A stretch of DNA of 64,000 bases from Bacillus sp. AFS059628 (GTDB taxonomy: Bacteria > Bacillota > Bacilli > Bacillales > Bacillaceae_G), in contig NZ_NVEC01000007.1 in the NCBI RefSeq assembly GCF_002571225.1, positions 62,001 to 126,000 on the forward strand, read 5' to 3'. The position numbers and the translations under genes were made by a program. This document shows positions 6,646 through 64,000 of the stretch, in pieces; the stretch's first letter is position 1; each line of letters opens with the position of its first letter. A model generated the notes under the pieces. It saw nothing but the letters and a program-made list of their open reading frames with translations, did no database searches and was not told where the DNA came from.

Positions 6646-6649
6646 AACA

Positions 6650-49466: not shown

Positions 49467-49513
49467 GCATACAAAGAGCGAAATCAATCATGTGTGCTTT
49501 TTGTTTTTCAATC

Positions 49514-49541
49514 ACCTAAAACTCGTACATTACATATGATG
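49514..49541 (+). promoter_or_regulatory. Candidate sigma-K promoter for spoVFA
   Basis: ACC (49514-49516), 16-base spacer, CATATGATG (49533-49541), close to the sigma-K consensus AC-N16/17-CATANNNTA (last base differs). spoVF is a mother-cell sigma-K operon in B. subtilis, which fits. Confidence 0.45.
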
Positions 49542-49605
49542 TGGAGGAAAAAGAAAAAGTAGGCACTTTTCTTATAAATGACAGAAAAAGAAGGTGAATT
49601 AGGGA

Positions 49606-50508
49606 ATGTTGACTGAGATGCATATTGCTGTCATAGGAGGAGATGCAAGACAGCTAGAAGTAATTCGCAAGCTAGTTGAATTGGATGCGAAACTTTCATT
49701 GATAGGGTTTGATCAGTTAGATCATGGCTTCACAGGGGCGGCAAAAGAAAGTATACAAAATTTAGATTTCACTTCTGTAGATGCAATTATTTTGCCAGTT
49801 GCAGGTACAAATGCCAAGGGAGAAGTAGATACTATTTTTTCAAACGAAAAAGTTTCTATAACGAAAGAACAAATTGAAAATACACCAGAACATTTTACTA
49901 TATATTCAGGTATTGGTACGCCTTACTTGGAAAATCTCGTATCTACTACAAACCGTAAATTAATTAAATTATTTGATCGTGATGATGTGGCAATCTACAA
50001 TTCTATACCAACTGTAGAAGGTACATTAATGATGGTAATTCAACATACCGACTATACGATTCATGGTTCTAATGTAATGGTTTTAGGATTTGGTAGAACA
50101 GGGATGAGCGTTGCCAGAGCATTTCAATCATTAGGAGCCCATGTCAAAGTTGGAGCAAGACGATCGGAACATATTGCACGTATTACAGAGATGATGTTTT
50201 CTCCTTTTCATATGCAGAACATTGAGAAAGAAGTAGGGAATATCGATATTGTCATTAATACAATTCCGCATCTCGTTGTGACAGCGAATGTCATTTCAAA
50301 AATGCCGGCCCATACGTTAGTAATTGATTTAGCTTCTAAACCAGGCGGTACCGACTTTAGATATGCGGAAAAAAGAGGAGTCAAAGCGCTGTTAGCACCT
50401 GGATTACCAGGTATTGTTGCTCCAAAAACAGCAGGACAAATTTTAGCGAACGTTCTTTCTCAGTTATTAGCAGAAGATGTAATCGCAAGAAAGGAGAATG
50501 GAGAATGA
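49606..50508 (+). CDS. spoVFA: Dipicolinate synthase subunit A
   Basis: With SpoVFB it makes dipicolinic acid from the lysine-pathway intermediate in the mother cell; dipicolinate is then moved to the spore core and gives heat resistance. The 300-residue protein has an N-terminal domain (MHIAVIGGDARQLEVIRKL) and a Rossmann NAD(P)-binding domain (VMVLGFGRTGMSVARAFQSLGAHVKVGARR, about 160-190), ending in LIDLASKPGG-like and LPGIVAPKTAGQILANVL. It is intact. Its stop overlaps the spoVFB start by four bases. Confidence 0.96.
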   Translation: MLTEMHIAVIGGDARQLEVIRKLVELDAKLSLIGFDQLDHGFTGAAKESIQNLDFTSVDAIILPVAGTNAKGEVDTIFSNEKVSITKEQIENTPEHFTIYSGIGTPYLENLVSTTNRKLIKLFDRDDVAIYNSIPTVEGTLMMVIQHTDYTIHGSNVMVLGFGRTGMSVARAFQSLGAHVKVGARRSEHIARITEMMFSPFHMQNIEKEVGNIDIVINTIPHLVVTANVISKMPAHTLVIDLASKPGGTDFRYAEKRGVKALLAPGLPGIVAPKTAGQILANVLSQLLAEDVIARKENGE

Positions 50509-50945
50509 ATTTAAAAGGGAAGAGAATAGGGTTTGGTTTTACTGGTTCACATTGTACGTACGAAGAAGTAATGCCTCATTTAGAAAAATTGATTGCTGAG
50601 GGAGCAGAAGTACGTCCCGTTGTTTCTTATACTGTTCAATCAACGAATACGAGATTTGGCGAAGGAGCAGAGTGGATTAAAAAGATTGAAGAAGTAACAG
50701 GCTTTAAAGCGATTAATTCAATCGTTGGTGCAGAACCACTAGGACCTAAAATTCCACTAGATTGTATGGTAATTGCACCACTAACAGGAAATTCAATGAG
50801 TAAATTTGCAAATGCAATGACAGACTCTCCAGTATTAATGGCAGCGAAGGCGACGCTAAGAAATGGCAAGCCTGTCGTATTGGCTGTTTCGACGAATGAT
50901 GCTCTAGGGCTTAATGGAGTAAATCTAATTACACCAACAAGGTGA
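50505..50945 (+). CDS. spoVFB: Dipicolinate synthase subunit B, N-terminal part (gene interrupted)
   Basis: Flavoprotein-fold subunit of dipicolinate synthase, normally about 200 residues. Here only ~141 native residues remain: MNLKGKRIGFGFTGSHCTYEEV, the flavin-type APLTGNSMSKFANAMTDSPV and LAVSTNDALGLNGVNL. After GVNL the frame runs into foreign DNA (ITPTR, stop at 50945). The missing ~60 C-terminal residues should lie beyond the right end of the inserted element, outside the window. As drawn, the gene cannot give a full subunit; excision of the element would be needed. The remaining part has no other damage, which argues against plain decay. Confidence 0.92.
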   Translation: MNLKGKRIGFGFTGSHCTYEEVMPHLEKLIAEGAEVRPVVSYTVQSTNTRFGEGAEWIKKIEEVTGFKAINSIVGAEPLGPKIPLDCMVIAPLTGNSMSKFANAMTDSPVLMAAKATLRNGKPVVLAVSTNDALGLNGVNLITPTR

Positions 50946-50962
50946 CAACAAAGCATAAACGC
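50920..50962. other. Left attachment site (attL) of the element in spoVFB
   Basis: The SpoVFB protein match ends at the codons for GVNL (about 50917-50928). The recombinase gene ends at 50963. The recombination core must lie in this interval, probably around GTAAATCTAAT; its exact bases cannot be set without attR or the uninterrupted gene. Confidence 0.7.
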
Positions 50963-52510
50963 TTATATGTCGCCATCTTGAGGGAGCTTAGGGTAAAGCA
51001 CAAGTTCGAAATCATCGAGTCTTTGCCACTTTTCCTTTTTATAAACAGCCTTTTCTAAAACTGACTTTAGGAGGCTGTTTTTCTTTTTGGGATCATCTGT
51101 TTTAAAGTACAGATCAAGAACATGCTCTACTTGAGGTATTGTATCTTTCTTAACTTTTTCTTTCTTAATTTCTGTTTTAATTTCTTTCTTTAGGTTTTCC
51201 ATCGTGGAAGTAATTTCAGTAATGCGATTAGAAATTACATTCGAACGTTCTAAAAACATATCGACTGTGTAAACACCACGCTCCAATAAATCATGTAAAT
51301 TATTTTTTTGTTTTTGGACATCTACTAATTCTTTATCAAGCTTGCGTAATGCAACTTCATTCATTTGAATAACTTGTGTTTCTTTTAATTTGTTATCTTG
51401 CTTATGTTTTTCAAAATCAGCTTTATAATTGATGTACCATTCTTTTAATGCCTCGAGTAAACGCTTCTCAATTAATTCAGTATAACTTGATTTGTTTTCA
51501 CAGCCACGGTGTTTACAATCCATCGTTTCTTTTCGATTCTTCGGATAACGTTGGACCATGCTATAACCACATTTACTACATTTAATAATGCCAGCTAGAG
51601 GATTTTTAATTCCATTCGTATTGTAAGGAACGTGATATCTTGAGTTTAATTTTTCTTGTACTTGTTCAAATAAACTTTCCGGTATGATTGGCTCATGTTT
51701 GCCATCAGCAATAATCCAATCTGATTTATCTTGACGAGCACAACTTCTTTTTACGGCATCAGGCTGTTTTACTTCTTTTCTCTTTTGCCAAGTCACTTTT
51801 CCGATGTACACATTGTTTTTTAATATATCCAAGATGCTGTAGGGGTTCCATTCATTCCCTAACTTACTTTTGTAACCAAGATCATTTAACTTGCTTCGGA
51901 TTGCGTTAGCGCCCATATCCTCATTTGCATACCAATCAAATATCATTCTTACGACAGAAGCCTCTTCTGAATTAATCGTTAACGTACGCTCACGCTTATT
52001 TAAACGGTGGATATCATAACCATAAGGCGCATGGGTACCGAGATAATTACCAGCCTCCACGCTTGCTATACGGCCGCGTTGCATACGACGCGTAATAATC
52101 TTTAACTCCTTACGAGCCATAAACGCTTCAAATTCGCTATATTCTTCATCCCACTCATCATTAAGGTCATAAGTCTTCCTAGGTGTCATAATCTTCGTAT
52201 TCGAGCGTTTAAACGTCTCTAAAATGATTCCTTGCTCTTTCATACCGCCACGACCTAAACGGTCCATATCCATACAAAGAACAACATCATATTTATTATC
52301 TTCAATTTCCTCAAGCAGCGCTAACATCTCAGGACGTTTCACTAAGCTCTCACCAGAAACAATTTCCTCACGGACAGCTAAAACATTTAAGTTCATTTCC
52401 TTCGCTATTTTCAGCAGGGTAGTGCGGTGCTTAGCTAATGTTTCTCCTTCGCCGCGCGCTTCAGCTTCGAGATCGGCACGGGATTTTCTTAGGTAGATTG
52501 CGGTTTTCAT
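50963..52510 (-). CDS. Large serine recombinase (site-specific integrase/excisionase)
   Basis: Catalyses integration and probably excision of the element at spoVFB. The 515-residue protein has the resolvase-type catalytic domain with nucleophile Ser10 (YLRKSR), the Arg-rich VLCMDMDRLGRGG and EAFMARKELKIITRR segments, then the recombinase domain (GYDI..., IFDWYANEDMGANAIRSKLNDLGY), a zinc ribbon (CSKCGYSMVQRY...CKHRGC) and a long C-terminal coiled coil (~375-470). AAGGAGG lies before the ATG (plus strand 52519-52525). A TATACT on the minus strand (52535-52540) could be a -10. It ends 18 bases from the spoVFB fragment, and spoVFA transcription would run antisense into it. Confidence 0.95.
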   Translation of the reverse strand: MKTAIYLRKSRADLEAEARGEGETLAKHRTTLLKIAKEMNLNVLAVREEIVSGESLVKRPEMLALLEEIEDNKYDVVLCMDMDRLGRGGMKEQGIILETFKRSNTKIMTPRKTYDLNDEWDEEYSEFEAFMARKELKIITRRMQRGRIASVEAGNYLGTHAPYGYDIHRLNKRERTLTINSEEASVVRMIFDWYANEDMGANAIRSKLNDLGYKSKLGNEWNPYSILDILKNNVYIGKVTWQKRKEVKQPDAVKRSCARQDKSDWIIADGKHEPIIPESLFEQVQEKLNSRYHVPYNTNGIKNPLAGIIKCSKCGYSMVQRYPKNRKETMDCKHRGCENKSSYTELIEKRLLEALKEWYINYKADFEKHKQDNKLKETQVIQMNEVALRKLDKELVDVQKQKNNLHDLLERGVYTVDMFLERSNVISNRITEITSTMENLKKEIKTEIKKEKVKKDTIPQVEHVLDLYFKTDDPKKKNSLLKSVLEKAVYKKEKWQRLDDFELVLYPKLPQDGDI

Positions 52511-52570
52511 AGATAGACCTCCTTGTTATTAGTTAGTATACGAAAAGCAGATAGATAGAAGAAGTAAAGA

Positions 52571-52597
52571 AAAGAAAAAGCCCTGTATAAGAGCTTT
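52571..52597 (-). terminator. Terminator after the membrane protein gene
   Basis: On the minus strand AAAGC...GCTTT forms a short stem followed by a T-rich tract, between the membrane protein gene and the recombinase gene. Confidence 0.45.
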
Positions 52598-52603
52598 AGT
52601 AAA

Positions 52604-53476
52604 TTATTTTGGATTTATATGTACATTGATAGATATATTTGTATCAGAATTATCTTTGATAGGATTAGAATCATGATCAGCTTCTGTAATTTCTAGTTTC
52701 GTACTAGTAGATGTTGTTTGTCTAACCTTCTTTACTTTAAATCCTAATTCTTTATATTCTAAGTAAACTTTAGAAGAAAAGTCACAGATATAAAAAAGTT
52801 TATCTTCAGGAGTATTCGCTAATGTACAAAGGGTTTTCTTTTCATCAATTACATAATTATGAATCAAATTTAGTTTTATAATTTCATCTTGAGTTAAGAT
52901 ACGAATTGAGTACTTTTTATTATCTAATTCTTGCACTCTAATGAGATGATAAATGAAAAGTCCGCTGATAAATATAGGGAATGCAAGTCCTAATCCAATG
53001 ATTTCGTACCAAATAGCCCTATCTATTGCTATGGTTAGAAGTGTGTAATACCAAAATATACTTGATAAAAGAAAATATAGTGCTTGTTTACGAATTTCTT
53101 TCTTTATTTCGTTGGATTTATCTCCATGTTCAGTGATTTTAAATAACTTTGCAGTTGCAAATGCTGATATTGAAATTGCTATTAGAGCAATTATACTGAA
53201 AATAAAACCGTGTTTATGTATATAGTCAGAGAATGCAGCATTAATCAATAATCCTGGAACAAGGTAAATGAGTAGTATGAATATACACAATACACTAATA
53301 AGCTCTGTAATTTTTAATCTGTTTTTTTGCTCTTTACTATTGAATAGCATGTCTAACTGGCTTGTTGTATATAGCTGAACAAATTTTTGAATGATAAAAG
53401 GTATACCACTAAGTAAGGCTACTGTCGCCGTAACTAAGGCAGTAGCGATTTTTGCAAAATTATCATCAATGTGCAT
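52604..53476 (-). CDS. Unknown membrane protein of the lysogeny module
   Basis: I do not recognise a family. The 290-residue protein has five clear hydrophobic helices (about residues 10-33, 60-82, 90-112, 130-150 and 160-183), then a soluble C-terminal half of ~100 residues ending in a Thr/Ser-rich segment (RQTTSTSTKLEITEADHD). It lies in the lysogeny cluster between the ImmA-type peptidase and the recombinase, a place where temperate phages often carry superinfection-exclusion or defence genes expressed in the lysogen. That role is only an inference from location and topology. Codon use and AT content are similar to the neighbours. Confidence 0.75.
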   Translation of the reverse strand: MHIDDNFAKIATALVTATVALLSGIPFIIQKFVQLYTTSQLDMLFNSKEQKNRLKITELISVLCIFILLIYLVPGLLINAAFSDYIHKHGFIFSIIALIAISISAFATAKLFKITEHGDKSNEIKKEIRKQALYFLLSSIFWYYTLLTIAIDRAIWYEIIGLGLAFPIFISGLFIYHLIRVQELDNKKYSIRILTQDEIIKLNLIHNYVIDEKKTLCTLANTPEDKLFYICDFSSKVYLEYKELGFKVKKVRQTTSTSTKLEITEADHDSNPIKDNSDTNISINVHINPK

Positions 53477-53506
53477 CGGAAGTTATCAGTCCCTTCTTGT
53501 TTCTAG

Positions 53507-53938
53507 TTATTGTAGTTTTTTTAAACAAGAAAAACCTTTTGGCACCCCATGAATCTCCGCGACCTCTTGGATAGAAAAAACAGTATCCTCATAAGCAGAA
53601 ACCATTTCATCGGTAAGTAACAATTCCACAGCAAATGTATTTGCTTCGATTTCTAAGCGATCCACTGAAAAGAAGGTTTGGTTACGCAAGAAGGGGGTAT
53701 TTGCTTTCGGATGAAGTACAGCATGACCTAATTCATGTGCACAAACAAATCGTTGAGTAGTTTCGTTAATTTTATTATTGATATGAATGAATTTAAAGCG
53801 TTTATAAGTGTTGTAAAAACCAAGAGTATTCCCAAGGTCTTCAAACAACACTATAATATTTTTTCGTTTAGCAATTTCAAAAGGGTTTGTTGTACCGTGT
53901 TTTTTTACGATTTTCATTACGTAGTCTTTAATTTTCAT
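53507..53938 (-). CDS. ImmA/IrrE-type metallopeptidase
   Basis: Zinc peptidase of the family that, in ICEBs1 and many phages, cleaves the neighbouring repressor and so triggers induction. The 143-residue protein has the HExxH motif in FVCAHELGHAVLHPKANTPF (about 67-86) and the downstream Glu region LEIEANTFAVELLLTDEM. It lies directly downstream of the repressor gene (12 bases), the classic ImmR-ImmA order. It starts at ATG 53938. Confidence 0.9.
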   Translation of the reverse strand: MKIKDYVMKIVKKHGTTNPFEIAKRKNIIVLFEDLGNTLGFYNTYKRFKFIHINNKINETTQRFVCAHELGHAVLHPKANTPFLRNQTFFSVDRLEIEANTFAVELLLTDEMVSAYEDTVFSIQEVAEIHGVPKGFSCLKKLQ

Positions 53939-53950
53939 TTCTCGCTCCGT

Positions 53951-54361
53951 TCAATCTTTTTTATACTTGTTTGGAGTGAATTTTTGTTTTGCTAATTGTT
54001 TTGCCATGCGCATAGAGTTTTCTAGAGAAATACGAATCATTTCTTTTGTGTGTTCGTCTATTGGTTCTCCGTCAAACATTAAAGCATCTTCGCTATTTTC
54101 TAATTCTTCTAATGTTTTTTCTAAATCACGTGCAATATCGCGTTCTTCTTTTTTAGAAAGTTTGTTAGACCTACCCAATAATTCGTCTGTAGATATTTCA
54201 TATAAATCAGCTAATTTTCCTAATGTTGTTGTATCAGGATCACGATAGTCGCGTTCATAATTTGAAAGGACAGTATTTGTAATACCGATTTTTTCGGCGA
54301 CAAACTTTTGAGACCATTTGCGTCGTTCTCTTTCTTTTTTTAATCTATAGCCTAAAGTCAT
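53951..54361 (-). CDS. Phage repressor (XRE/cI-like)
   Basis: Probable lysogeny repressor of 136 residues. The N-terminal HTH is WSQKFVAEKIGITNTVLSNYERDYRDPDTTTLGKLADLYEISTDELLG (about 16-63); the C-terminal part is helical and charged and carries no peptidase domain, so induction most likely depends on the ImmA-type protein encoded next to it. It is divergent from the Cro-like gene, with 168 bases of operator DNA between them. Confidence 0.9.
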   Translation of the reverse strand: MTLGYRLKKERERRKWSQKFVAEKIGITNTVLSNYERDYRDPDTTTLGKLADLYEISTDELLGRSNKLSKKEERDIARDLEKTLEELENSEDALMFDGEPIDEHTKEMIRISLENSMRMAKQLAKQKFTPNKYKKD

Positions 54362-54413
54362 AGTTTATCCTTCCATTCTTCCATTTGTCTTTTCGTTAAT
54401 TATTTTAACAATA

Positions 54414-54430
54414 TTTCACGTTATGTGAAA
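54414..54430. promoter_or_regulatory. Operator copy 1 in the repressor-Cro intergenic region
   Basis: TTTCACGTTATGTGAAA, an almost perfect 17-base palindrome. It lies across the presumed leftward promoter of the repressor gene (minus-strand TTTCAC, 17 bases, TAAAAT with an upstream TG). Confidence 0.75.
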
Positions 54431-54458
54431 CTTTATTCACTAAAAGTTAAAAATCCCA

Positions 54459-54487
54459 TTGACTTTCACTTTACGTGGAATTATTAT
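54459..54487 (+). promoter_or_regulatory. Rightward early promoter with operator copy 2 in its spacer
   Basis: TTGACT (54459-54464), 17-base spacer, TATTAT (54482-54487). The operator TTTCACTTTACGTGGAA (54464-54480) fills the spacer, so a bound repressor would block polymerase. Confidence 0.75.
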
Positions 54488-54498
54488 TGATACATAAG

Positions 54499-54515
54499 AT
54501 TCACGTAAAGTGGAA
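54499..54515. promoter_or_regulatory. Operator copy 3
   Basis: ATTCACGTAAAGTGGAA, same palindromic pattern, between the rightward promoter and the cro-like start. Confidence 0.75.
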
Positions 54516-54529
54516 TGAGGTGGTGTTAA

Positions 54530-54721
54530 ATGGAGATTAATCAAAAAATACGGGAATTAAGAATTTCTAAGGGTATTTCACAAGTATTTATAGCAAAAGA
54601 ACTTAGTATTTCTGTATCAGCTTATAACATGAAAGAAGCAGGGAAACGTTCGTTTAAAGCACAAGAATTAAAGTGTGTTGCAAAAGCACTAAATGAACAT
54701 CCATCAATTTTTTTTGAATAA
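54530..54721 (+). CDS. Cro-like XRE DNA-binding protein
   Basis: A 63-residue single HTH protein (IRELRISKGISQVFIAKELSISVSAYNMKEAGKRSFKAQELKCVAKALN) divergent from the repressor. Size and position fit a Cro-type lytic switch protein or a small antirepressor. GAGGTGG precedes the ATG. It is flanked by operator copies on both sides (54499 and 54725), so it is probably controlled by itself and by the repressor. Confidence 0.88.
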   Translation: MEINQKIRELRISKGISQVFIAKELSISVSAYNMKEAGKRSFKAQELKCVAKALNEHPSIFFE

Positions 54722-54724
54722 ATA

Positions 54725-54741
54725 TTACACGTAAAGTGGAA
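54725..54741. promoter_or_regulatory. Operator copy 4, downstream of cro
   Basis: TTACACGTAAAGTGGAA, matching copy 3 at 15 of 17 positions, four bases after the cro-like stop codon. It could form a roadblock or a loop with copies 1-3. Confidence 0.65.
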
Positions 54742-54851
54742 TTTATGATGAAACTTGTGTAAAAGTAGGTGAGAAAATGCCATCAACTAACATGGCAGTA
54801 CCAACAGAACCGTCGCATAAACATATAAAAAGCACTTCAAGAGGTGACACC

Positions 54852-55025
54852 ATGAGCCAACAAGAAGAATATGCGGCGACTTATGAATTTGGAAAAACGA
54901 AAGTCCATGTTGTGGCTCCTGAGCCAAAATCACAAAAGGATATTGATAAAATCCGTCAAGCATATTACAAGGCTGGTTGGGCCATCATCAAAGAAATACA
55001 AGTAAAAGAAAACGTTGAGGAATAA
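54852..55025 (+). CDS. Small phage protein, unknown function
   Basis: 57 residues (MSQQEEYAATYEFGKTKVHV..., Lys-rich end). I do not recognise a family beyond its phage-like look. The frame is open from an ATG at 54777, and both starts have ribosome-binding-like sequence (AGGTGAG before 54777; AGAGGTGA before 54852); the second has the better spacing. The longer form would have 82 residues. It is the first gene after operator copy 4. Confidence 0.6.
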   Translation: MSQQEEYAATYEFGKTKVHVVAPEPKSQKDIDKIRQAYYKAGWAIIKEIQVKENVEE

Positions 55026-55115
55026 TTCCTCTCTTTTTATACGAAAAGTAGACAAGTTACATATGTACTAAGTTCATTGTAATCATTTGAAAACTAAATA
55101 TGGAGGCGAACAGAT

Positions 55116-55703
55116 ATGGGAACAAGCATATACTGCAATTCAGCAATAGGAGAATTATTACAGAATGCTAGAGAATGTTGTGACAATGTTCAGCTGAAAA
55201 CAAAGAAAGGGTTATCTAAGTACCTGGGTATTACACATGAAAGATTAACCCGTATTGAATCTGGACTTTCTAAACCAGAATTTGAACTTGCGATGGATTG
55301 GTGCCATGCAACAGGGGCAAAGTTGAATCAACAAGCGATCAAACATATTTATGGTGTTGGGTTGCCGCCTACAGATCCACGCTTAACTCAGGATGTAAAT
55401 CTACAATTGATGAACTACATTAAACAAGCTGAAGAGGGGATTGCGGCAGCGAAAGAAATTATGAATCTACAAGTTACAACAAGGTCATGGAAGCACGATG
55501 AAAAAAAGAAACATGAATATGCAGTTCATGCAAAAGAAATCTTCGATACAATCCAAGCTACTCAATGTGTAGTACAAGCTCTTGAGCAAGTTCATTTTGG
55601 CATTATGGAACAAATACAAAGAAGTTGGTTGCAAAAGGCTATGGCAGAAAACGTTATTATCCAATCAGTGGATAGCTTACTGACTTTAACAAAGGTGCTG
55701 TAA
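55116..55703 (+). CDS. HTH protein of the early region
   Basis: 195 residues. The N-terminal part resembles an XRE helix-turn-helix (LSKYLGITHERLTRIESGLSKPEFELAMDWCHATGAKL, about 32-70), followed by a helical C-terminal domain (~90-190) of unknown role. GGAGGCG precedes the ATG. Position suggests a regulator of early genes, but no target can be named. Confidence 0.7.
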   Translation: MGTSIYCNSAIGELLQNARECCDNVQLKTKKGLSKYLGITHERLTRIESGLSKPEFELAMDWCHATGAKLNQQAIKHIYGVGLPPTDPRLTQDVNLQLMNYIKQAEEGIAAAKEIMNLQVTTRSWKHDEKKKHEYAVHAKEIFDTIQATQCVVQALEQVHFGIMEQIQRSWLQKAMAENVIIQSVDSLLTLTKVL

Positions 55704-55716
55704 AGGGGGAAGGGAA

Positions 55717-55938
55717 ATGACAGTAGATTATAAGAAACCGAGTCTAAGAGAATATAAGGAATTAATTCGATATGATGCAAAATTAACTGGTGAAATTAAA
55801 ATAGCAGAATTACTTAATGAGGATTCAAAAACAGTTGAATTAAAGCAAGAGAAGAAATTGCTGGGGATTCGAATCAAGATTATCGAAGCGTCATTCATTT
55901 TGAAACATAAATGGGCAAATAAAAAAGCTACCGCCTAG
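55717..55938 (+). CDS. Small phage protein, unknown function
   Basis: 73 residues, highly charged and probably all helical (YKELIRYDAKLTGEIKIAELLNEDSKTVELKQEKKLLGIRIKIIEASF). I do not recognise it. It starts 13 bases after the HTH gene with AAGGGGGAAGGG before the ATG, so the two are cotranscribed. The structured leader described below follows it. Confidence 0.65.
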   Translation: MTVDYKKPSLREYKELIRYDAKLTGEIKIAELLNEDSKTVELKQEKKLLGIRIKIIEASFILKHKWANKKATA

Positions 55939-55997
55939 GAAACAGTAGCTCTAAAAAAGATAATGTAAAGCAATTATAACATTTTATGAATCATTTG

Positions 55998-56116
55998 GAC
56001 AAGCAACTGTGCTTGTCGTTATGACCAGAAAGGGATTGTTCCTCCCATACCTCTACAATGTTCCTTTCTGGTTGTAACGATGCGTACAGCATTAATTTAA
56101 ATAGAAAGGAGATGGG
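55998..56116 (+). promoter_or_regulatory. Structured leader repeat, copy 1
   Basis: Contains in order: hairpin GACAAGCA-actg-TGCTTGTC (55998-56017), a long hairpin CCAGAAAGG (56025-56033)...CCTTTCTGG (56063-56071) with an inner ATTGT/ACAAT stem and a loop rich in CCTCC, a small ATGC...GCAT hairpin (56080-56092) and then the ribosome binding site AGAAAGGAG of the next gene. The 3' arm CCTTTCT is complementary both to the 5' arm and to AGAAAGG of the ribosome binding site. A second copy lies at 56694-56816. Confidence 0.7.
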
Positions 56117-56121
56117 AAATT

Positions 56122-56337
56122 ATGAATATCCAAGAAGCTACTAAATTGGCAATAAAGCAAAATAGATATATTTCGCGAGTGCATTTTATAAACACCTTTA
56201 AGGTCAAACTTAAACCAACAAATACGTATGATTTATGCAAAACGTATTCTTTAAATCCTGGTGAAGTTGAACCACGCAGGGCATGGAGTCCCCGAGCAGA
56301 TGATCTAATTGCTGATGACTGGATAGTTATTGATTAG
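56122..56337 (+). CDS. DUF2829-like protein, possibly Tad2-type Thoeris inhibitor
   Basis: 71 residues: MNIQEATKLAIKQNRYISRVHF at the start and RRAWSPRADDLIADDWIVID at the end. The start (short helix with charged residues then aromatic) and the W-x-P-x-x-x-DLxADDW end follow the DUF2829 pattern, the family of Tad2, which traps signalling molecules of the Thoeris defence system. The central part is shorter than in typical members (~90 residues). Placement in the family is my pattern reading; activity is not shown. It is preceded by the structured leader and its stop overlaps that of the opposite-strand gene. Confidence 0.55.
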   Translation: MNIQEATKLAIKQNRYISRVHFINTFKVKLKPTNTYDLCKTYSLNPGEVEPRRAWSPRADDLIADDWIVID

Positions 56338-56633
56338 GGCATCCAAGATTTTATCTCTTTAGCAGCTTTGTATCCTTTTTTTAGAAGAGTATTTTCTTCA
56401 CAATATGCAATTCCTGCTGAAAGTAAAGTAGTCATATAAGCAATACTGTCTGCTTCATATATAGATACAAAACCTTCATCTTGTAAATGAAATAAAGCTT
56501 TTGAAATTGATTTGTCAGTTTCATCAGGACATAGTTCCTGGAATCTTTCGAAAGAAAACATATCAGTTTCGTGTTTTTTATACTCAGTCGTCATGTATTT
56601 TAATAGGATTTCGGATAGCTTAATCATTTTCAT
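56334..56633 (-). CDS. Small winged-helix-like protein, opposite strand (moron-like)
   Basis: 99 residues. FSFERFQELCPDETDKSISKALFHLQDEGFVSIYEAD looks like a winged helix, followed by LSAGIAYCEENTLLKKGYKAAKEIKSW, similar to small YjcQ-like phage proteins. It is the only minus-strand gene in the rightward early region and has its own GGGAGGTG ribosome binding site and extended -10 promoter. Together with the Tad2-like gene it is bracketed by the two leader repeats. Function unknown. Confidence 0.75.
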   Translation of the reverse strand: MKMIKLSEILLKYMTTEYKKHETDMFSFERFQELCPDETDKSISKALFHLQDEGFVSIYEADSIAYMTTLLSAGIAYCEENTLLKKGYKAAKEIKSWMP

Positions 56634-56657
56634 ATATTACACCTCCCTTAAAGGAAG

Positions 56658-56666
56658 ATTATACCA
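56658..56666 (-). promoter_or_regulatory. Extended -10 promoter of the opposite-strand gene
   Basis: Minus strand reads TGG-TATAAT, a perfect extended -10, 25 bases from the start codon; the -35 is weak. Confidence 0.6.
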
Positions 56667-56693
56667 TGATTTTTTAATGTGTTTATAAAAAGA

Positions 56694-56816
56694 GACAAGC
56701 CACTGTGCTTGTCGTTATGACCAGAAAGGGATTGTTCCTCCCCATATCCCTACAATGAATCTTTCTGGTTGTAACGATGCGTACAGCATCAATTTAATTA
56801 GAAAGGAGAGGTAATT
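56694..56816 (+). promoter_or_regulatory. Structured leader repeat, copy 2
   Basis: Nearly identical to 55998-56116 with a few changes and small indels. The pairing CCAGAAAG/CTTTCTGG, the inner ATTGT/ACAAT stem, the ATGC/GCAT hairpin and the downstream AGAAAGGAG are all kept; a loop base change (C for A) shortens the first stem by one pair. It precedes the gene at 56818. Confidence 0.7.
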
Positions 56817-56817
56817 C

Positions 56818-57102
56818 ATGAACGATAAAAACAATCGTCTTCATGATCTAGTTCTTCCTGGGGATTTTTCATTTGCGAATAAACTTCATCACTGTATGGA
56901 TGAATGTATTCATAACATGTTTAATGCAGAATCAACTGAAGAATCAAATCACTGGGAAGAAGAGCTGGAGCGATGTATAAGGGAATTTAAAATGCTTCGT
57001 GATACAAAAGAGGAACATGAGGCATCGATGAGTTATCGTGTAGTGATTAAAGATTTAAGAGCAAGAGGAGTTAACGCTTCGTTAGTAACACGTAGAAAAT
57101 AA
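56818..57102 (+). CDS. Phage protein, unknown function
   Basis: 94 residues, acidic helical middle (DECIHNMFNAESTEESNHWEEELERCIREFKMLRDTKEEHEAS), basic end. I do not recognise a family. It has the same leader as the Tad2-like gene and a ribosome binding site AAAGGAGAGG. A hairpin CTATCACT/AGTGATAG lies 7 bases after its stop. Confidence 0.65.
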   Translation: MNDKNNRLHDLVLPGDFSFANKLHHCMDECIHNMFNAESTEESNHWEEELERCIREFKMLRDTKEEHEASMSYRVVIKDLRARGVNASLVTRRK

Positions 57103-57108
57103 AAAATT

Positions 57109-57200
57109 CTATCACTTGGCAGAGTGATAGAAAAATGGTCTTGCAAAGATCTTAGGGTTAATTATATCAAATTAACATTCGTATAACAACGGAGTGTGCT
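57109..57200 (+). promoter_or_regulatory. Two stem-loops upstream of 57203
   Basis: CTATCACT (57109-57116)/AGTGATAG (57123-57130), and GTTAATT...AATTAAC further on, before the CGGAG ribosome binding site. No T tract follows the first stem on the plus strand, so a leader structure is as likely as a terminator. Confidence 0.4.
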
Positions 57201-57202
57201 AC

Positions 57203-57379
57203 ATGCTTTTTGACAAATCGTTACATAGAGTGTTGCTGAATCCTAAAGTGTTTCAACAAGCGACATCAGAGCAACACCTAATTTACTTAGTAAAACAATA
57301 TCTCAAAATAGGATACAAGAATTATCGCTTATTACGTGTAGAGGACGGATTTGCGATATGTAAACGGGAGGATGAATAA
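57203..57379 (+). CDS. Small phage protein, unknown function
   Basis: 58 residues (MLFDKSLHRVLLNPKVFQQATSEQHLIYLVKQYLKIGYKNYRLLRVEDGFAICKRE). The frame could begin at GTG 57194, but that codon lies inside GGAG; ATG 57203 has correct spacing. It ends one base before the next gene, within whose ribosome binding site (GGGAGG) it terminates, so it is coupled to the replication genes. No family recognised. Confidence 0.65.
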   Translation: MLFDKSLHRVLLNPKVFQQATSEQHLIYLVKQYLKIGYKNYRLLRVEDGFAICKREDE

Positions 57380-57380
57380 T

Positions 57381-58340
57381 ATGGCAGTTTATAGACCAGT
57401 ACACGTTTCATTTTGGCAGGATTCATTTGTTTTAGATCTTACACCGGAGGAGAAGTATTTCTACTTATATTTGATGACAAACGGTAAGACGTCTCAATCA
57501 GGAATCTATGAGCTTCCACTTCGTATAATTGAAACTGATACGGGATATAACCGCGAAACTGTTATCAAGCTATTAGAACGTTTTGCTGAGTACGGAAAAA
57601 TTAATTACAACCAAAAAACAAAAGAGCTGTTCTTAATCAACTGGTTGAAATTCAATCCAATTAAAAATGTAAACATTGAAAAGTGTGTTTTAAAAGAGAT
57701 TCAATCTGTGAAGGACCAGGATTTTTTAGTTGATTTTTATGAAACTTGTTTGCAATTAGAACGAGAACAAGATTTTAAAATTCCTCGTATTAAGGAGTAT
57801 TTATCAGTCCGTTTGGAGGGGCTTATAAGGGGCTTCCAAGACCCTAGCAAGGAAGAAGAAAAAGAAAAAGAAAAAGAAGAAGAAAAAGAACAACAACAAC
57901 AACAAGAACGCGCAGGCGCGGAAGAAGTTGTTGAGGTTAATCCAATTTCTTTTTACGAGCAAAACTTCGGATTCATTACACCTTTTATTGCAGATGGTAT
58001 TTATGCTTGGATAGATGATTTAAATGTAGAACTAGTTATTAAGGCTATGGAGATTGCTTTAGAGAAGAATACGAGAAATATGTCTTACGTAAATACGATT
58101 TTAAGAGATTGGCATCTTAAAGGCTTTAAAACAGTAACTGATGTTGAGGCAGCTGATAAAGCATTTCGTGCTCAGCGATTAACAAAAGCGCAACAACAGA
58201 CACAAACGCCTTATCAACAAAAAGGATTATCGGAATCTACTAAAAACGTAATACAGCAGCAACAAGCATGGGAGCAGAACATTCCAACAGAAGAAGAACT
58301 TGCAGTACTTAATCAACAGAATGCGTGGTTGGCCAAATGA
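57381..58340 (+). CDS. DnaD-like phage replication protein (replisome organiser)
   Basis: 319 residues. The N-terminal part (~1-110, VSFWQDSFVLDLTPEEKYFYLYLMTNGKTSQSGIYELP) is the winged-helix of phage replisome organisers. A low-complexity linker of Glu/Lys and then Gln (~155-180) follows. The C-terminal part (FYEQNFGFITPFIADGIYAWIDDL...YVNTILRDWHLKGFKT) is the DnaD/DnaB2 domain that binds DNA and loads the replicative helicase. GGGAGGATG fixes the start. Its stop overlaps the helicase start (ATGA), so the two are a coupled replication pair; no separate DnaC-type loader is seen. Confidence 0.88.
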   Translation: MAVYRPVHVSFWQDSFVLDLTPEEKYFYLYLMTNGKTSQSGIYELPLRIIETDTGYNRETVIKLLERFAEYGKINYNQKTKELFLINWLKFNPIKNVNIEKCVLKEIQSVKDQDFLVDFYETCLQLEREQDFKIPRIKEYLSVRLEGLIRGFQDPSKEEEKEKEKEEEKEQQQQQERAGAEEVVEVNPISFYEQNFGFITPFIADGIYAWIDDLNVELVIKAMEIALEKNTRNMSYVNTILRDWHLKGFKTVTDVEAADKAFRAQRLTKAQQQTQTPYQQKGLSESTKNVIQQQQAWEQNIPTEEELAVLNQQNAWLAK

Positions 58341-59659
58341 GTAACGATATGATTCGCAATGTTGAAGCTGAACAAAGTGTTTTAGGTAGCATAATCCAAG
58401 AAGGCGATTTAATTAAAGATTGTCAGCTAAAGGTAAAACAGTTCTCTTTACCAACACACCAAGTGATTTTTAAGGCGATGAGAGAATTAGAAGATGCTGA
58501 AGTTCCGATAGATCTTGTTGCTCTCATCGGAAAATTCGATGAGAGCTTTATGCATCAAATTGGCGGGATCGAATTCTTTGTAAACCTGACAGAAGTTGTA
58601 ACAACAACTAAGAACTTCTCGTATCACGAAGGTTTAGTGATTGAAGCTTGGAAAATGCGACATGCTCAAGAGGTTGCTGGTAATTTATATAATCGTCTTC
58701 AGCAAGATAGGGACATGAGTGCTATTAGTACATCAATTGATGAATTAAGCGCCATTGAAGAAATAGGTTACTCAGATGAATTTAACTTGAAAGATACGCT
58801 TGTTGATCTGTATAAAAAAATGCAAATTAATGTGGGAGATTTAACCGGTATTCCAACTGGTTATGACGACTTGAACAGAATGACAGCAGGGTTGCAAGAA
58901 GGGGATTTAATTATTGTAGGTGCCCGTCCTTCAATGGGAAAAACAGCATTCGTATTAAACGTTGCTTTTCATGCAGCAAGTGCTCATACAGCAACAGGAA
59001 TCTTTTCACTAGAAATGGGAGAAGAGCAGTTACTTAAACGTATGATTTCAAGTACTGGAAATATAGATGCTACGAAATTAAAGAATCCTAAGAAGCTATG
59101 TAATTTAAAGGATTGGGAAAAGATTAGTCAAGCGATGGGGTTGATTAATGATTTGCCATTAGAAATTTATGATAAAGCAAATGTAACGATGCAAGAGATT
59201 TACGCTAAGGCTAGGAAATTAAAGCGTAAGTACCCGGATAAAAAGGTTTTAATTGCAATTGATTACTTGCAGCTTATTGTAGGGGATCCAAAGCATAGAG
59301 GGAACCGCATGCAAGAAATAGGTGAGATTAGTCGTAAGTTAAAACTGATGGCAAGAGAATTAAATGTATGTGTAGTTGCATTATCACAGTTAAGTCGTGC
59401 GGTAGAAAGTAGGCAAGATAAGAGGCCGTTGCTATCAGATTTACGTGAAAATGGTCAAATTGAGCAAGATGCGGATTTAATAGCATTCTTATACCGTGAA
59501 GATTACTATGACCGCGAGACAGAAAATAAAAACATAACGGAAATTATTTTAGCGAAACAGAGGAACGGTCCAGTTGGTGTTGTTGAACTAGCATTCATTA
59601 AAGAATTTAGTAAGTTTGTAAATTTAGAGAGAAAGTTCAATCATCAACAGGAGGCTTAA
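58337..59659 (+). CDS. Replicative DNA helicase, DnaB type
   Basis: 440-residue hexameric helicase of the element. It has the DnaB N-terminal domain (MIRNVEAEQSVLGSIIQEGDL) and the RecA-like C-terminal domain: Walker A GARPSMGKTAF (~residue 194), Walker B VLIAIDYLQLIVGD, then SQLSRAVESRQDKRPLLSDLRENGQIEQDADLI and FLYRED. The ATG overlaps the stop of the DnaD-like gene; a GTG at 58325 lies upstream but has no better ribosome binding site. The element thus carries its own helicase, as many Bacillus phages do. Confidence 0.93.
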   Translation: MSNDMIRNVEAEQSVLGSIIQEGDLIKDCQLKVKQFSLPTHQVIFKAMRELEDAEVPIDLVALIGKFDESFMHQIGGIEFFVNLTEVVTTTKNFSYHEGLVIEAWKMRHAQEVAGNLYNRLQQDRDMSAISTSIDELSAIEEIGYSDEFNLKDTLVDLYKKMQINVGDLTGIPTGYDDLNRMTAGLQEGDLIIVGARPSMGKTAFVLNVAFHAASAHTATGIFSLEMGEEQLLKRMISSTGNIDATKLKNPKKLCNLKDWEKISQAMGLINDLPLEIYDKANVTMQEIYAKARKLKRKYPDKKVLIAIDYLQLIVGDPKHRGNRMQEIGEISRKLKLMARELNVCVVALSQLSRAVESRQDKRPLLSDLRENGQIEQDADLIAFLYREDYYDRETENKNITEIILAKQRNGPVGVVELAFIKEFSKFVNLERKFNHQQEA

Positions 59660-59666
59660 TCTAATC

Positions 59667-59855
59667 ATGTTGTTACGTCAGGAAGTAGAACGTAGAAAAC
59701 TAATAATCATTCGTAAATTATTGGGATTAGGGTTAGCTGAGATTAATGGACAAACATTAGATCAACTAACGTTAACGCAGCTTGAAGGAATTTTAATTGC
59801 AAGCTTGCAGGTATTGGAGGGGGAAAACAATGCCAAAGCAATTAACAATTTTTGA
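59667..59855 (+). CDS. FbpA-like small protein
   Basis: 62 residues: LRQEVERRKLIIIRKLLGLGLAEINGQTLDQLTLTQLEGIL follows the pattern of Fur-regulated basic protein A (VEKRK..LI.KL..LG....G..L..LTL.ELE). In B. subtilis FbpA works with the FsrA small RNA in iron sparing. Whether the phage copy does so is unknown, and no Fur box is visible here. AGGAGG lies 11 bases before the ATG. It overlaps the next gene by 26 bases. Confidence 0.65.
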   Translation: MLLRQEVERRKLIIIRKLLGLGLAEINGQTLDQLTLTQLEGILIASLQVLEGENNAKAINNF

Positions 59856-60192
59856 CGTGGAGCCAGTTTTATCATTTGATCCTAAGAAAGCTCATATTCA
59901 CCGTTTGAATTCAAGATTACGGTATGCAGATGTGGTTGTGCAAATACCACGTCAAGTCAAAGCAATCGATGAATTAAAACCAACGACAGCGCCTGATGAG
60001 CGTTACGAATTATTTGAGGATTATACAATTGGGATTTGGCGTTATAAGCGAGTGGACGATAAAGAATTTGTGTGGGAAGAGGCAGAAAAAATGTGTAAGC
60101 AAGCAAGGGATGAAAAAAAGCCGATTCCAATACGGCTCCATCTATCACTGGAACAATCATTTGTTCCGGAAAACGTTGTGCAATATCTATAG
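59830..60192 (+). CDS. Phage protein, unknown function
   Basis: 120 residues (MPKQLTIFDVEPVLSFDPKKAHIHRLNSRLRYADVVVQIPR...). No family recognised. The ATG at 59830 has GGAGGGGG at 59816-59823; a frame open from 59797 lacks a ribosome binding site. It starts inside the FbpA-like gene in another frame, so the two are translated from one message. Confidence 0.65.
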   Translation: MPKQLTIFDVEPVLSFDPKKAHIHRLNSRLRYADVVVQIPRQVKAIDELKPTTAPDERYELFEDYTIGIWRYKRVDDKEFVWEEAEKMCKQARDEKKPIPIRLHLSLEQSFVPENVVQYL

Positions 60193-60204
60193 ACAAATAA
60201 AAAA

Positions 60205-60265
60205 AAGCTGAGATCACTCTCAACTTACTTCGACAAAGTAATTATAACATATGGGAGTGATCTTG
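60205..60265 (+). promoter_or_regulatory. Switch-like leader covering the next ribosome binding site
   Basis: Two exclusive pairings: AAGCTGAGA (60205-60213) with TCTCAACTT (60218-60226, one mismatch), or AGATCACTC (60211-60219) with GAGTGATCT (60255-60263), which buries the GGGAG ribosome binding site. An inner TTACTT-cgaca-AAGTAA hairpin (60225-60241) would bring the arms of the second form together. On the minus strand the first hairpin is followed by eight T residues. Confidence 0.6.
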
Positions 60266-60457
60266 GTGGGAATTAGAAAAGAAAATCTTGTGGAAATGAC
60301 AGCTGAAATAGATTTGAAAACAAACGGAATATATGTTGTTAAAAATGGTCAGGTGCGACTAATAGAACCGCCTCAAGGTGGCTATGGTGAACAATCCTTT
60401 GTATATCAAAGTGGAAAAGTAATTCGTATGGAAGAACGCAAAACACAGTTACTTTAA
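60266..60457 (+). CDS. DUF3954-like small phage protein
   Basis: 63 residues. AEIDLKTNGIYVVKNGQVRLIEPPQGGYGEQSFVYQSGKVIRME follows the DUF3954 pattern of Bacillus phages (AEIDL..N.IYVVK.G....EPP). Function unknown. Starts are uncertain: ATG 60251 is part of the ribosome binding segment; TTG 60263 and GTG 60266 are both close to GGGAG (60253-60257); I chose GTG 60266. Its translation start is inside the possible switch described above. Confidence 0.65.
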   Translation: MGIRKENLVEMTAEIDLKTNGIYVVKNGQVRLIEPPQGGYGEQSFVYQSGKVIRMEERKTQLL

Positions 60458-60494
60458 TAAAATTTGAATTTTATAAGAATCGGAGGAATGGAAA

Positions 60495-60899
60495 ATGGAA
60501 CAGATTTTAAAAATTGAAGAACATCAAGAGAAAGTAAGATGGTCAAGCATGAGTGGTTATGCTATAACAACAAACGAACAAGTAATCAAGTTATTGATTG
60601 ATGATGAACAATCTTGTTGTGAAAACTTTGGTTACTTTATGTCAGAAGATGACTTCAATGATTTTATAGGAGCACAACTTATTGATGTAAAAATAACTGA
60701 TACAGAATTAAAAGAGGGGCTTCTTGAAAAGCATGATTTGGATATAGAAGGTGAGTATTTTGAAGGTGATGTAATGTTTGTCGATATCGTCACATCTAAA
60801 GGGACTCTCCAATTTGTAGCTTACAACGAACATAACGGATATTACGGTCATGAAGCTAAAGTTAGTTCAAAACAAATTAATCATGATGAAGTGTTATAA
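60495..60899 (+). CDS. DUF7448-like phage protein
   Basis: 134 residues, acidic. The segment DDEQSCCENFGYFMSEDDFNDFIGAQLIDVKITD with VDIVTSKGTLQFVAYNEHNGYYGHEAKV matches, from memory, the small DUF7448 group of phage proteins with a conserved Cys-Cys-Glu-x-Phe-Gly. No function is known. GGAGGAATGG precedes the ATG. One copy of the A/T palindrome lies on each side of the gene. Confidence 0.6.
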   Translation: MEQILKIEEHQEKVRWSSMSGYAITTNEQVIKLLIDDEQSCCENFGYFMSEDDFNDFIGAQLIDVKITDTELKEGLLEKHDLDIEGEYFEGDVMFVDIVTSKGTLQFVAYNEHNGYYGHEAKVSSKQINHDEVL

Positions 60900-60934
60900 A
60901 AGCGTTATTTTATAAAAAATGGAGGTAAGCAAAC

Positions 60935-61120
60935 ATGGATAAATTAAAAAAGTATTTAGATGCGTTACTAACTGGTAAGGGGAAGGCAATCATTGAAGAA
61001 GAGGATGTACAAGAAGTATTGCCACGTTTAGAAGCTGTATTAAATGAAACAGGTTGCGTGTACTCTTGCAGTGAGAACATGGAAGGTAGAGTGCTAGTCA
61101 TTATTCGTGAAGTGAAATAG
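60935..61120 (+). CDS. Small phage protein, unknown function
   Basis: 61 residues (MDKLKKYLDALLTGKGKAIIEEEDVQEVLPRLEAVLNETGCVYSCSENMEGRVLVIIREVK). Probably a small alpha/beta protein. No family recognised. TGGAGGTAAG precedes the ATG. It lies between two copies of the A/T palindrome. Confidence 0.65.
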   Translation: MDKLKKYLDALLTGKGKAIIEEEDVQEVLPRLEAVLNETGCVYSCSENMEGRVLVIIREVK

Positions 61121-61151
61121 AACAAAATAGTTATTTGGGAGAGGGTTAAAC

Positions 61152-61355
61152 GTGGATATAGTAGATAAATTGTCCTTTATAGAAACTCAGTTAGATGATG
61201 CAGCAAAAAAACATAAGGAAGCTGAAGAACGAGCGTTAGGTGTAGCTAACTATTCGGATTATATGTATCACAAAGGACATAAGGAAGCATTTAAAGGTTC
61301 GCTTATGCTTATCCGAGATTTACAATTACAAGTTCTTTTAAATGATAAAAATTAA
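61152..61355 (+). CDS. Small phage protein, unknown function
   Basis: 67 residues starting with GTG (MDIVDKLSFIETQLDDAAKKHKEAEERALG...). Mostly helical and charged. No family recognised. GGGAGAGG precedes the start; palindrome copies lie before and after it. Confidence 0.6.
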   Translation: MDIVDKLSFIETQLDDAAKKHKEAEERALGVANYSDYMYHKGHKEAFKGSLMLIRDLQLQVLLNDKN

Positions 61356-61384
61356 ACAAAATTCTTATTTTGGAGGGAAAGAGA

Positions 61385-61819
61385 ATGAGAGAAATTAAGT
61401 TTCGTGCATGGGATAAAGAAAAACAATTTATGTTCACTCCTACCCAAATTGAATTAACACAAGGTGAAAATTTTGCTAAATGGGATAAATGGCGTCCTAT
61501 GGCATGGCGAGACGAGTTACCTGAAGAAGGATCAGGCGGTATCGGTAGAGCGTTAGGTGATGAATGTGAATTAATGCAATACACAGGATTAAAAGATAAG
61601 TATGGCACGGAGATTTATGAAGGGGATATATTGAGAGGCCCTAAGTATTACGAAAGTGAAGAGAGCACATCACCAGTTTACGATCAGTGGAAAGTAACGT
61701 ATAAAAATTGTTCTTATTATTTAGGGGATAGTCCAATTGAAGAAGACCTTGATTGGATTGGCTATGAGTGTGAAGTTGTTGGGAATATATATGAGAATGC
61801 AGAATTGATACAGGTTTAA
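61385..61819 (+). CDS. YopX family protein
   Basis: 144 residues. The start MREIKFRAWDKEKQFMFTPTQIEL and the ending region IEEDLDWIGYECEVVGNIYENAELI are the YopX pattern; CELMQYTGLKDKYGTEIYEGDIL is its most conserved core. YopX proteins are common in SPbeta-like and other Bacillus phages and form barrel-like oligomers; their job is unknown. TTGGAGGGAAAG sets the ATG at 61385. Confidence 0.88.
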   Translation: MREIKFRAWDKEKQFMFTPTQIELTQGENFAKWDKWRPMAWRDELPEEGSGGIGRALGDECELMQYTGLKDKYGTEIYEGDILRGPKYYESEESTSPVYDQWKVTYKNCSYYLGDSPIEEDLDWIGYECEVVGNIYENAELIQV

Positions 61820-61860
61820 TACAAAATCTTTATTTTAAAACGAAAGGGAGGGCACTGGAT

Positions 61861-62064
61861 TTGGATAAGTACCGCAAATTACATTTAATACTTAAAGATA
61901 CAGATCAAAAGGTATTGGTGTATAGCCAAGAAAGCTTTACTTCAATTATGGATTATTTGAATGAAGATAAATTTATTATGTTATTCGAGTTAGAAAATAA
62001 TTTGTATCTTCCTTGTGCAATAAATACAGAAGATATTATTGCTATTTCAACAGTTGAAGATTAA
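61861..62064 (+). CDS. Small phage protein, unknown function
   Basis: 67 residues from TTG (MDKYRKLHLILKDTDQKVLVYSQESFTSIMDYLNEDKFIMLFELENNLYLPCAINTEDIIAISTVED). It looks like a small beta-rich protein. No family recognised. AAAGGGAGGG lies 8 bases upstream, which supports the TTG start. Last clear gene of the rightward early run. Confidence 0.6.
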   Translation: MDKYRKLHLILKDTDQKVLVYSQESFTSIMDYLNEDKFIMLFELENNLYLPCAINTEDIIAISTVED

Positions 62065-62782: not shown

Positions 62783-62814
62783 GACCTAAAATTTATTTTC
62801 AGCTTAATACAAAA

Positions 62815-62903: not shown

Positions 62904-64000
62904 TTAATCTAACTTTTCAATTACAATTGAAGCATTTACATTTGTTTGTGTTCCACCTGCCAAAGTTTGCAAAGTGACCGCAGCAGCTGAAGTATGATTG
63001 TGGAGGGTAAGAACATCACCTGCGGCTAAAGAGAGGATTGTTTGCCCGTTGTTTTGCTGAGTTCCTGCACCTGATCCATAAACTGCGTTGGTAACTGGAG
63101 CACCATTTAAAAAGAGCGTAAATTGATTAGGTTCAACTCCTGATACAGAAAAAGAAATCTTATAATCTCCTGCATTAATAACCATAATCTGAGAAGTTCC
63201 AGGAGTATGAGTAATACCAGGTGTCATTAAACCATTCGAATTAAAAAGAATAGGTGCTTCTAAGGCAACAACTTGAGCTGCTGTATTGAAAATATAAGCG
63301 TATTGAGATAATCCAGATACTGTAAGGCCGGTAGGCCCAGTAGCTCCGGTAGCTCCAGCGGTTCCTGGTAATCCAGTAGGCCCAGGAATGCCTTGGATGC
63401 CTTGGATACCTTGAAGCCCAGTTGGGCCAGTCGGGCCGATAGGTCCAATAGGTCCTGGATTACCTTGAATACCTTGGATACCCTGAATTCCAGTCGCCCC
63501 AGTTATTCCAGTGGGTCCAATAGGACCAATAGGTCCCGGATTACCTTGAATCCCCTGAATCCCTTGACTTCCTTGAGGTCCAGTGGGGCCAGGAATCCCT
63601 TGGATACCTTGGATACCTTGAAGTCCGGTTGGTCCTGGTGACCCAGTTGGTCCAGTCGGGCCGATAGGTCCAATAGGTCCTGGTGGTCCACCTGAAGGAC
63701 CAGTCGGGCCCGTTGGTCCTGGTGGTCCACCTGAAGGGCCGGTCGGTCCAACAGCTCCAGAAGGTCCAGTTGGACCTACAGAACCAGGAATGCCAGGAAT
63801 GCCTTGAGGGCCGGTCGGGCCAGGAATGCCTTGAATCCCTTGAATGCCAGGAATGCCTTGAATGCCTTGAATCCCTTGAATTCCAGTGCCCCCCGTTATC
63901 CCAGTCGGTCCAATAGGACCTTGAATGCCAGGAATGCCTTGGATGCCTTGGATACCTTGAATTCCAGTAGGTCCAGTTGGACCAATAGATCCAGAAATCC
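62904..64000 (-). CDS. BclA-like collagen-repeat protein (5' end outside window)
   Basis: A leftward gene entering from the right edge; 365 codons are visible. Reading in one frame from 63998, it is Gly-X-Y repeats (GPTG, GIQG, GIPG, GPIG; about 220 residues) with a one-residue register shift at each of two GPSGGPPG sites, then a globular C-terminal domain from about 63320 ([36 protein letters not shown]...SIVIEKLD). That domain fits the trimerising BclA C-terminal domain of exosporium hair proteins. The N-terminal targeting region, which would tell whether it goes to the exosporium, is not in the window. It lies inside the phage-like element, opposite to the early genes. Confidence 0.85.

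Follow-up and report, generated by a model that had tools for sequence, protein, structure and literature searches.

A prophage-like element in spoVFB of Bacillus sp. AFS059628 is probably excised in sporulation and carries a small candidate directionality factor

The closest described counterpart of the element reported here is vfbin, which lies in spoVFB, the gene for dipicolinate synthase subunit B, in Bacillus weihenstephanensis KBAB4; its original description is reportedly that of Abe et al. 2013, doi 10.1111/mmi.12375. Our element interrupts the same gene in a 64,000-nucleotide stretch of Bacillus sp. AFS059628 (contig NZ_NVEC01000007.1, positions 62,001 to 126,000, forward strand), which we call the window. 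The original prediction, made from the letters of the window, had pointed to vfbin in spoVFB of KBAB4, and the accessible parts of PMC4191935, PMC5595907, and PMC10747680 confirm it, as do those of PMC6957869 and PMC5025042. In these excerpts, vfbin is a prophage-like element that interrupts spoVFB and is excised in sporulation. We liken the two elements by the gene that they interrupt and by their descriptions.

Other described systems share parts of this arrangement. SPβ of B. subtilis is also a prophage in a mother-cell gene and, as we propose for our element, pairs a large serine recombinase with a small factor that has its own promoter, but the gene (spsM) and the phage are different, and SPβ-type recombinases are about 30% identical to the one in the window. 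In the available part of PMC4191935, the small factor, SprB, has 58 aa and a mother-cell promoter just upstream (the −10 is perfect, the −35 imperfect, and transcription starts 20 nt ahead of the gene), lies within a mitomycin-inducible operon, and suffices together with SprA for excision in reduced SPβ. The skin element of B. subtilis (SpoIVCA type) likewise serves the rebuilding of a mother-cell gene, and several sister recombinases of the window's enzyme, with the same small open reading frame (ORF), lie near sigK pieces; skin is in sigK, however, and our element in spoVFB. The gin element, in gerE of B. cereus ATCC10987, resembles ours, as we interpret it, in its B. cereus group host, its 9-bp core, and its use of a serine recombinase plus an extra factor, but it has no phage genes, has three recombinases, and sits in another gene (PMC5595907, in part). 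A sigK insertion is excised in sporulation in another member of the B. cereus group (excerpt of PMC10745906), and a 2019 paper, in its accessible part, calls the directionality factors of some intervening elements still unidentified (PMC6957869).

We found the following features at and near the junction.

49606..50508, + strand: spoVFA (dipicolinate synthase subunit A), complete (TIGR02853, 1-287 of 287, E 9e-147)
50505..50945, + strand: spoVFB 5' piece (dipicolinate synthase subunit B; TIGR02852, 3mcu_A)
50922..50929, + strand: probable attL core, placed from the 9-bp core at the same codon in the mini-elements described below
50930..50950, + strand: attL element-side arm, conserved in L012, L015, L018, L023, L045, and L048
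50963..52510, − strand: large serine recombinase, 515 aa, facing the junction (Pfam PF00239, PF07508, PF13408)
54794..54824, + strand: promoter-like motif GGCAGTACC-N13-CATA before the small ORF, conserved in 65 of 67 upstream regions
54852..55025, + strand: 57-aa ORF, candidate recombination directionality factor (54777-55025 if the first ATG is used)

Of the 187 positions of NCBIfam TIGR02852, the spoVFB piece matches 1-137, above the cut-off. A solved structure of the dipicolinate synthase B chain, 3mcu_A, has 207 residues and aligns with the piece over residues 1-142. Its homology ends at about residue 141, followed by four unrelated residues and a stop at 50945. A gap of 17 bp separates the 3' end of the recombinase gene from the point where the spoVFB frame ends, and the recombinase frame is uninterrupted and has Resolvase, Recombinase, and zinc-ribbon domains. 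These matches uphold what had been read from the letters, namely, that spoVFB is interrupted by an element with a serine recombinase at its edge and that the gene is clean to about residue 141 before it gives way to phage-like DNA, with the recombinase facing the junction. spoVFB is required for heat-resistant spores. The insertion lies within the coding sequence of this mother-cell sporulation gene and carries its own site-specific recombinase, as do the members of the skin/vfbin/SPβ class; we class it as an intervening element of the vfbin type, with skin in sigK as a parallel. Very probably, as judged from the sequence, it cuts itself out in the mother cell and restores spoVFB. We hold with good confidence that it is a temperate-phage element that is excised in sporulation by the recombinase and the 57-aa factor, so that spoVFB is rejoined.

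The same junction recurs in viral contigs. Our scan of IMG/VR gave 41 loci, 38 of them with a recombinase 89-100% identical to the window's. In one record, L053, the junction is as in the window, with 93% DNA identity over window positions 49483-52581. The spoVFB flank measures 1.9 kb in L012 and L053 and 59 bp in L018, with the junction as in the window; in L015, L023, L045, and L048, it is reduced to a few matching bases. Records of these relatives reach 42.9 kb, and many stop at the recombinase stop codon. The far part of the one relative examined, G018 (locus L084), encodes terminase, portal, protease, capsid, and tail proteins; thus, some relatives at least are full-size prophages.

Both edges of such an insertion were found in related bacteria. 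We drew 397 genomes from the order, in which the best spoVFA-spoVFB identity to the window was 75%. In 11 of 19 genomes of one related Bacillaceae family, spoVFB is in two pieces, split at the window's codon; both pieces are on one contig in 10 of the 11 and on two contigs in G445. The insertions, which we call mini-elements, are 2,778-3,042 bp long in nine measured cases and about 9.2 kb long in G488. Their order is spoVFA, spoVFB 5' piece, a recombinase homologous to the window's and facing the junction, the small ORF, others including a 178-aa ORF, spoVFB 3' piece, and asd (complete for G221 and G488, most parts for G549). Related genomes in which spoVFB breaks at this codon therefore show the expected far edge, with the 3' end of spoVFB and then asd; the sequence from the window's strain stops short of it. 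A 9-bp att core, AATTTAATG, could be read in attL of 10 and attR of 9 of the 11 mini-elements and is likewise present in the unbroken spoVFB of G399. The element-side arms match as inverted repeats at 17-18 of 19 bases in all nine mini-elements measured (of 11) and therefore fit the expectation for serine-recombinase sites. We compared 23 window ORFs with the mini-elements; the recombinase and the small ORF alone had homologues there, both of them in all 11.

All 11 mini-elements keep the 178-aa ORF, which in L164 lies at 4111-4647 of the reverse strand. Pfam, PHROGs, and PADLOC gave no match to it, and neither the window nor any other locus searched has a homologue. Extra cargo of the G488 element (L170, reverse strand, about 3969-9959) includes a regulator-like protein of 482 aa and surface proteins that are putatively secreted. 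Two apparent further splits were rejected: G132 is an assembly break, with the same 12-bp palindrome ending both contigs, and G051 (Aneurinibacillus) has a frameshift inside one contig and no insertion. L197 and L198 have no insertion either, spoVFB being continuous in the part covered.

Both halves of spoVFB are strongly held by purifying selection in the genomes with mini-elements. The median pairwise dN/dS among the 11 interrupted genomes (55 pairs, finite ratio in 48-55) was 0.015 for the 5' half and 0.049 for the 3' half, compared with 0.056 for spoVFA, 0.087 for the recombinase, 0.22 for the 178-aa ORF, and 0.30 for the small ORF. A comparison of the spoVFB 5' piece in the window with that in L053 gave 46 synonymous and 3 non-synonymous changes (dN/dS about 0.013), some of which may be older than the insertion. 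With these two results, the earlier statement that the spoVFB fragment shows no decay holds. In a FastTree phylogeny of spoVFA, the interrupted genomes form one group, whose sole intact member, G399, is nested as the sister of G488. Distances correlate with those of spoVFA for the recombinase (r 0.99), the small ORF (0.97), and the 178-aa ORF (0.98; Mantel p ≤0.0004). The simplest reading is a single ancestral insertion, vertical descent, and one precise loss, the unbroken spoVFB of G399 inside the interrupted clade being apparently the result of that loss; we consider it less likely that the G488 lineage gained its insertion separately.

We propose from its position and conservation that the 57-aa ORF may be the recombination directionality factor of the element. 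It is present in 11 of 11 mini-elements (E 3e-12 to 7e-9). In the long reading from 54777 (36 distinct sequences), pN/pS was 3.0 in codons 1-25, 14 in codons 13-25, and 0.22 in codons 26-82. Because of this contrast, we rejected the 82-aa reading and place the protein start most likely at 54852, the upstream part being conserved as DNA. A profile of the small ORF matched 16 of 25 test loci at E <1e-8, and in all 16 of these, the ORF lies 5' of the recombinase on the opposite strand. The match was weak in L003 and L051, which are one and the same sequence. Among the test loci, the profile missed L007, L203, and L210, all with related recombinases, as well as L099 and L100 (no recombinase in the stretch covered), L201 (unrelated recombinase), and L005 (only 661 bp upstream covered); it also gave nothing convincing in L211 or L213. 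In a control of 4,862 ORFs from 56 loci, it matched three loci only, all of the prophage family. Outside these sets, it matched a 60-aa ORF of phage THSA-485A (1.7e-9), and tblastn of the small ORF against the phage collection gave no match.

Upstream of the small ORF is a conserved motif with the layout GG..GT(a)CC, about 13 nt, CATA, and then the ribosome site. We found it in 65 of 67 upstream regions: in all 39 prophages, which are closely related to one another, in all 11 mini-elements, and in 15 of the 17 other loci with the small ORF, the exceptions being L004 and the isolated phage THSA-485A. Markov-resampled sequences gave an expectation of 0.8 in total, but the motif was derived from the very sequences in which it was counted, so the counts are descriptive. 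As a check, we searched with a narrower pattern, which had one hit on the two strands of the window and two in 1.17 Mb of control strands. The CATA box resembles σE/σK −10 elements, and one of these sigma factors may read the motif. We propose that the motif is a promoter dedicated to the small ORF, which would set at least part of the timing. Upstream of the recombinase (20 aligned regions), a TATAAT-like box is conserved, which is TATACT in the window.

The recombinase also connects the element to sigK. Its subfamily (E ≤1e-100) was found in 25 of the 397 genomes, nine of which are spoVFB mini-elements. We examined nine of the other 16: seven recombinases lie ≤4 kb from a sigK 5' piece and one lies beside a sigK 3' piece, while the remaining locus, L209, is cut by a contig end. 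A set of ten genome loci gave a clear sigK piece in the flank in seven cases, a weak match in one (L002), and none in two. We conclude from these sigK pieces that both sigK and spoVFB are served by related recombinases, most of which come with the same small ORF. In Aneurinibacillus tyrosinisolvens (L009, 8825-11945), the sigK pieces are about 2.4 kb apart, a very small skin-type element; the recombinase between them gives two overlapping matches, as if frameshifted. We dismissed one candidate parallel, that a C. difficile plasmid recombinase (L211) and its 72-aa neighbor are CD1231/CD1234: we make no such claim, the neighbor being a helix-turn-helix protein. CD1234 is described as unlike known proteins in the accessible part of PMC5025042.

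An independent insertion involves spoVFB itself. In G593 (L199/L201), a prophage with an unrelated serine recombinase, only 24-26% identical, lies between the two halves of a distant spoVFB; asd follows the 3' half, and the break falls about eight codons ahead of that in the window. The gene thus appears to be hit repeatedly, within about eight codons, by recombinases that are only 24-26% identical.

The sequence of events would be as follows. A temperate phage would have integrated at a fixed codon of spoVFB by serine-recombinase site-specific recombination. In sporulation, the 57-aa protein would switch the 515-aa recombinase to the excision direction, with part of the timing at least coming from the promoter dedicated to the small protein. 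Recombination of attL with attR, which would lie beyond the window, would release the prophage as a circle and rejoin spoVFB so that dipicolinate is made; the forespore chromosome would retain the prophage.

Several observations weigh against this proposal, and they are taken here together with the rival explanations. The prophage may have broken spoVFB permanently, leaving the 5' piece as a relic and the spores poor in dipicolinate or dependent on another route. Phage integration could in principle inactivate a gene, and the spoVFB 3' half did not appear where it was looked for: neither it nor the far edge is reached in the window or in the 3,266 bp of phage genes by which one relative, L054, extends further, and it was found in 0 of 28 far ends from records of >20 kb (26 close family, 2 more distant). 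Against permanent loss, the changes between two interrupted copies are overwhelmingly synonymous, even if some are older than the insertion, and the mini-element genomes, where the insertion is apparently ancestral, keep both halves and the recombinase under purifying selection. We therefore regard a permanent break as improbable. We give equally little credence to an ordinary temperate phage that is excised on lytic induction only, with restoration of spoVFB incidental. This would suit relatives of 33-43 kb, with their structural genes in the one case examined, and the location of the small ORF in the phage early region. However, the small-ORF motif is kept in the mini-elements, which have no recognizable phage structural genes in the three cases examined, and selection still acts on the spoVFB halves of their hosts.

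A stronger challenge, although still doubtful in our judgment, is that the switch is real but that its directionality factor is another gene than the 57-aa ORF or that the recombinase is controlled directly. To our knowledge, the −35-like upstream box of the motif fits no known consensus. Comparison with Pfam, PHROGs, and solved structures linked the small ORF to no known directionality factor, its structure matches being at chance level (best E 0.029). Its presence in 38 of 38 relatives is common to seven other window ORFs, the recombinase included, and its dN/dS in the mini-elements is no more than moderate, reaching 0.93 at the largest. The third conserved ORF of the mini-elements, of 178 aa, is another candidate, and the small-ORF profile missed the related recombinases of L007, L203, and L210, likewise L211 and L213. 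Our scan with the small ORF gave at least 80 records; among the matches listed, 36 have the recombinase and 44 do not. Of those 44, 35 start at or inside the lysogeny module (28 at the repressor stop codon, 4 at that of the peptidase, and 3 at the small ORF or between it and the repressor), and 9 start in variable cargo, where the recombinase may be truly absent. PMC5595907, in its available part, calls the KBAB4 vfbin recombinase itself sporulation-specific, so that timing need not depend on the small protein. In contrast, the small ORF is the sole non-recombinase window ORF kept in all the mini-elements, the 178-aa ORF has no counterpart in the window or other loci searched, and the small ORF holds its place 5' of sister recombinases, on the opposite strand, in every clear locus. 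Its size and promoter layout also match those of SprB of SPβ (PMC4191935, in part). We thus prefer the 57-aa ORF as the candidate factor.

The window is phage-like past the recombinase, with the following further features.

52604..53476, − strand: variable cargo gene, 290 aa, without family match, with a homologue in 21 of 38 relatives
53507..54361, − strand: ImmA-type peptidase and CI-like repressor genes (PF06114, PF01381)
55116..60457, + strand: phage early and replication block (helix-turn-helix protein, DnaD-/DnaB-type proteins, small ORFs; one interposed cassette)
62904..63998, − strand: collagen-like gene with BclA-type C-terminal domain, part of the element (PF01391, PF18573)

Most ORFs of the early and replication block are present in 36-38 of 38 relatives, and YopX is also encoded past the junction (Pfam). 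The interposed cassette (55998-56822) contains a Tad2-like ORF (56122-56337, Pfam E 8e-10) and orf99 (56334-56633) and is flanked by direct repeats of about 129 bp, 90% identical (55998-56126 and 56694-56822). These two ORFs occur in 1 of 38 relatives only, namely, the record identical to the window. That IMG/VR record, L054, is 100% identical to window positions 50963-64000, and its extension completes the collagen-like gene and also encodes an ArpU-like activator and an integrase of the tyrosine type. Since L054 is still phage DNA 3,266 bp beyond the window, the element runs past the window. The collagen-like gene is complete in L054 (441 aa; 11942-13267), matches the PHROG "collagen like minor tail," and is present in 4 of 38 relatives within the stretch covered.

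In the literature searched, mostly papers available without subscription, we found no directionality factor for spoVFB elements, no shared motif, and no spoVFB mini-elements. The element type is already known; what we contribute is a specific candidate for the factor that controls it, with a putative promoter, as well as the connection with skin-type elements and the finding of mini-elements kept by vertical descent. In the 57-aa ORF, spoVFB elements and a set of skin-type elements have a concrete, testable candidate for their directionality factor, with a control motif common to both. We lean, by a modest degree, toward a broader reading, in which one module of the recombinase subfamily, the 57-aa factor, and a dedicated sporulation promoter (GG..GTCC-N13-CATA) colonized sigK and spoVFB across many spore formers and was stripped in one Bacillaceae clade to a 2.8-kb, vertically inherited natural equivalent of the laboratory construct "SPmini." We lowered its odds slightly because the small ORF is not alone in occurring in all 38 relatives. 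If this is true, a phage switch would have become a fixed part of the host sporulation program. The mini-elements suggest that such elements can shrink to a few genes and persist through speciation, and they have a bearing on whether such elements are tolerated parasites or useful timing devices.

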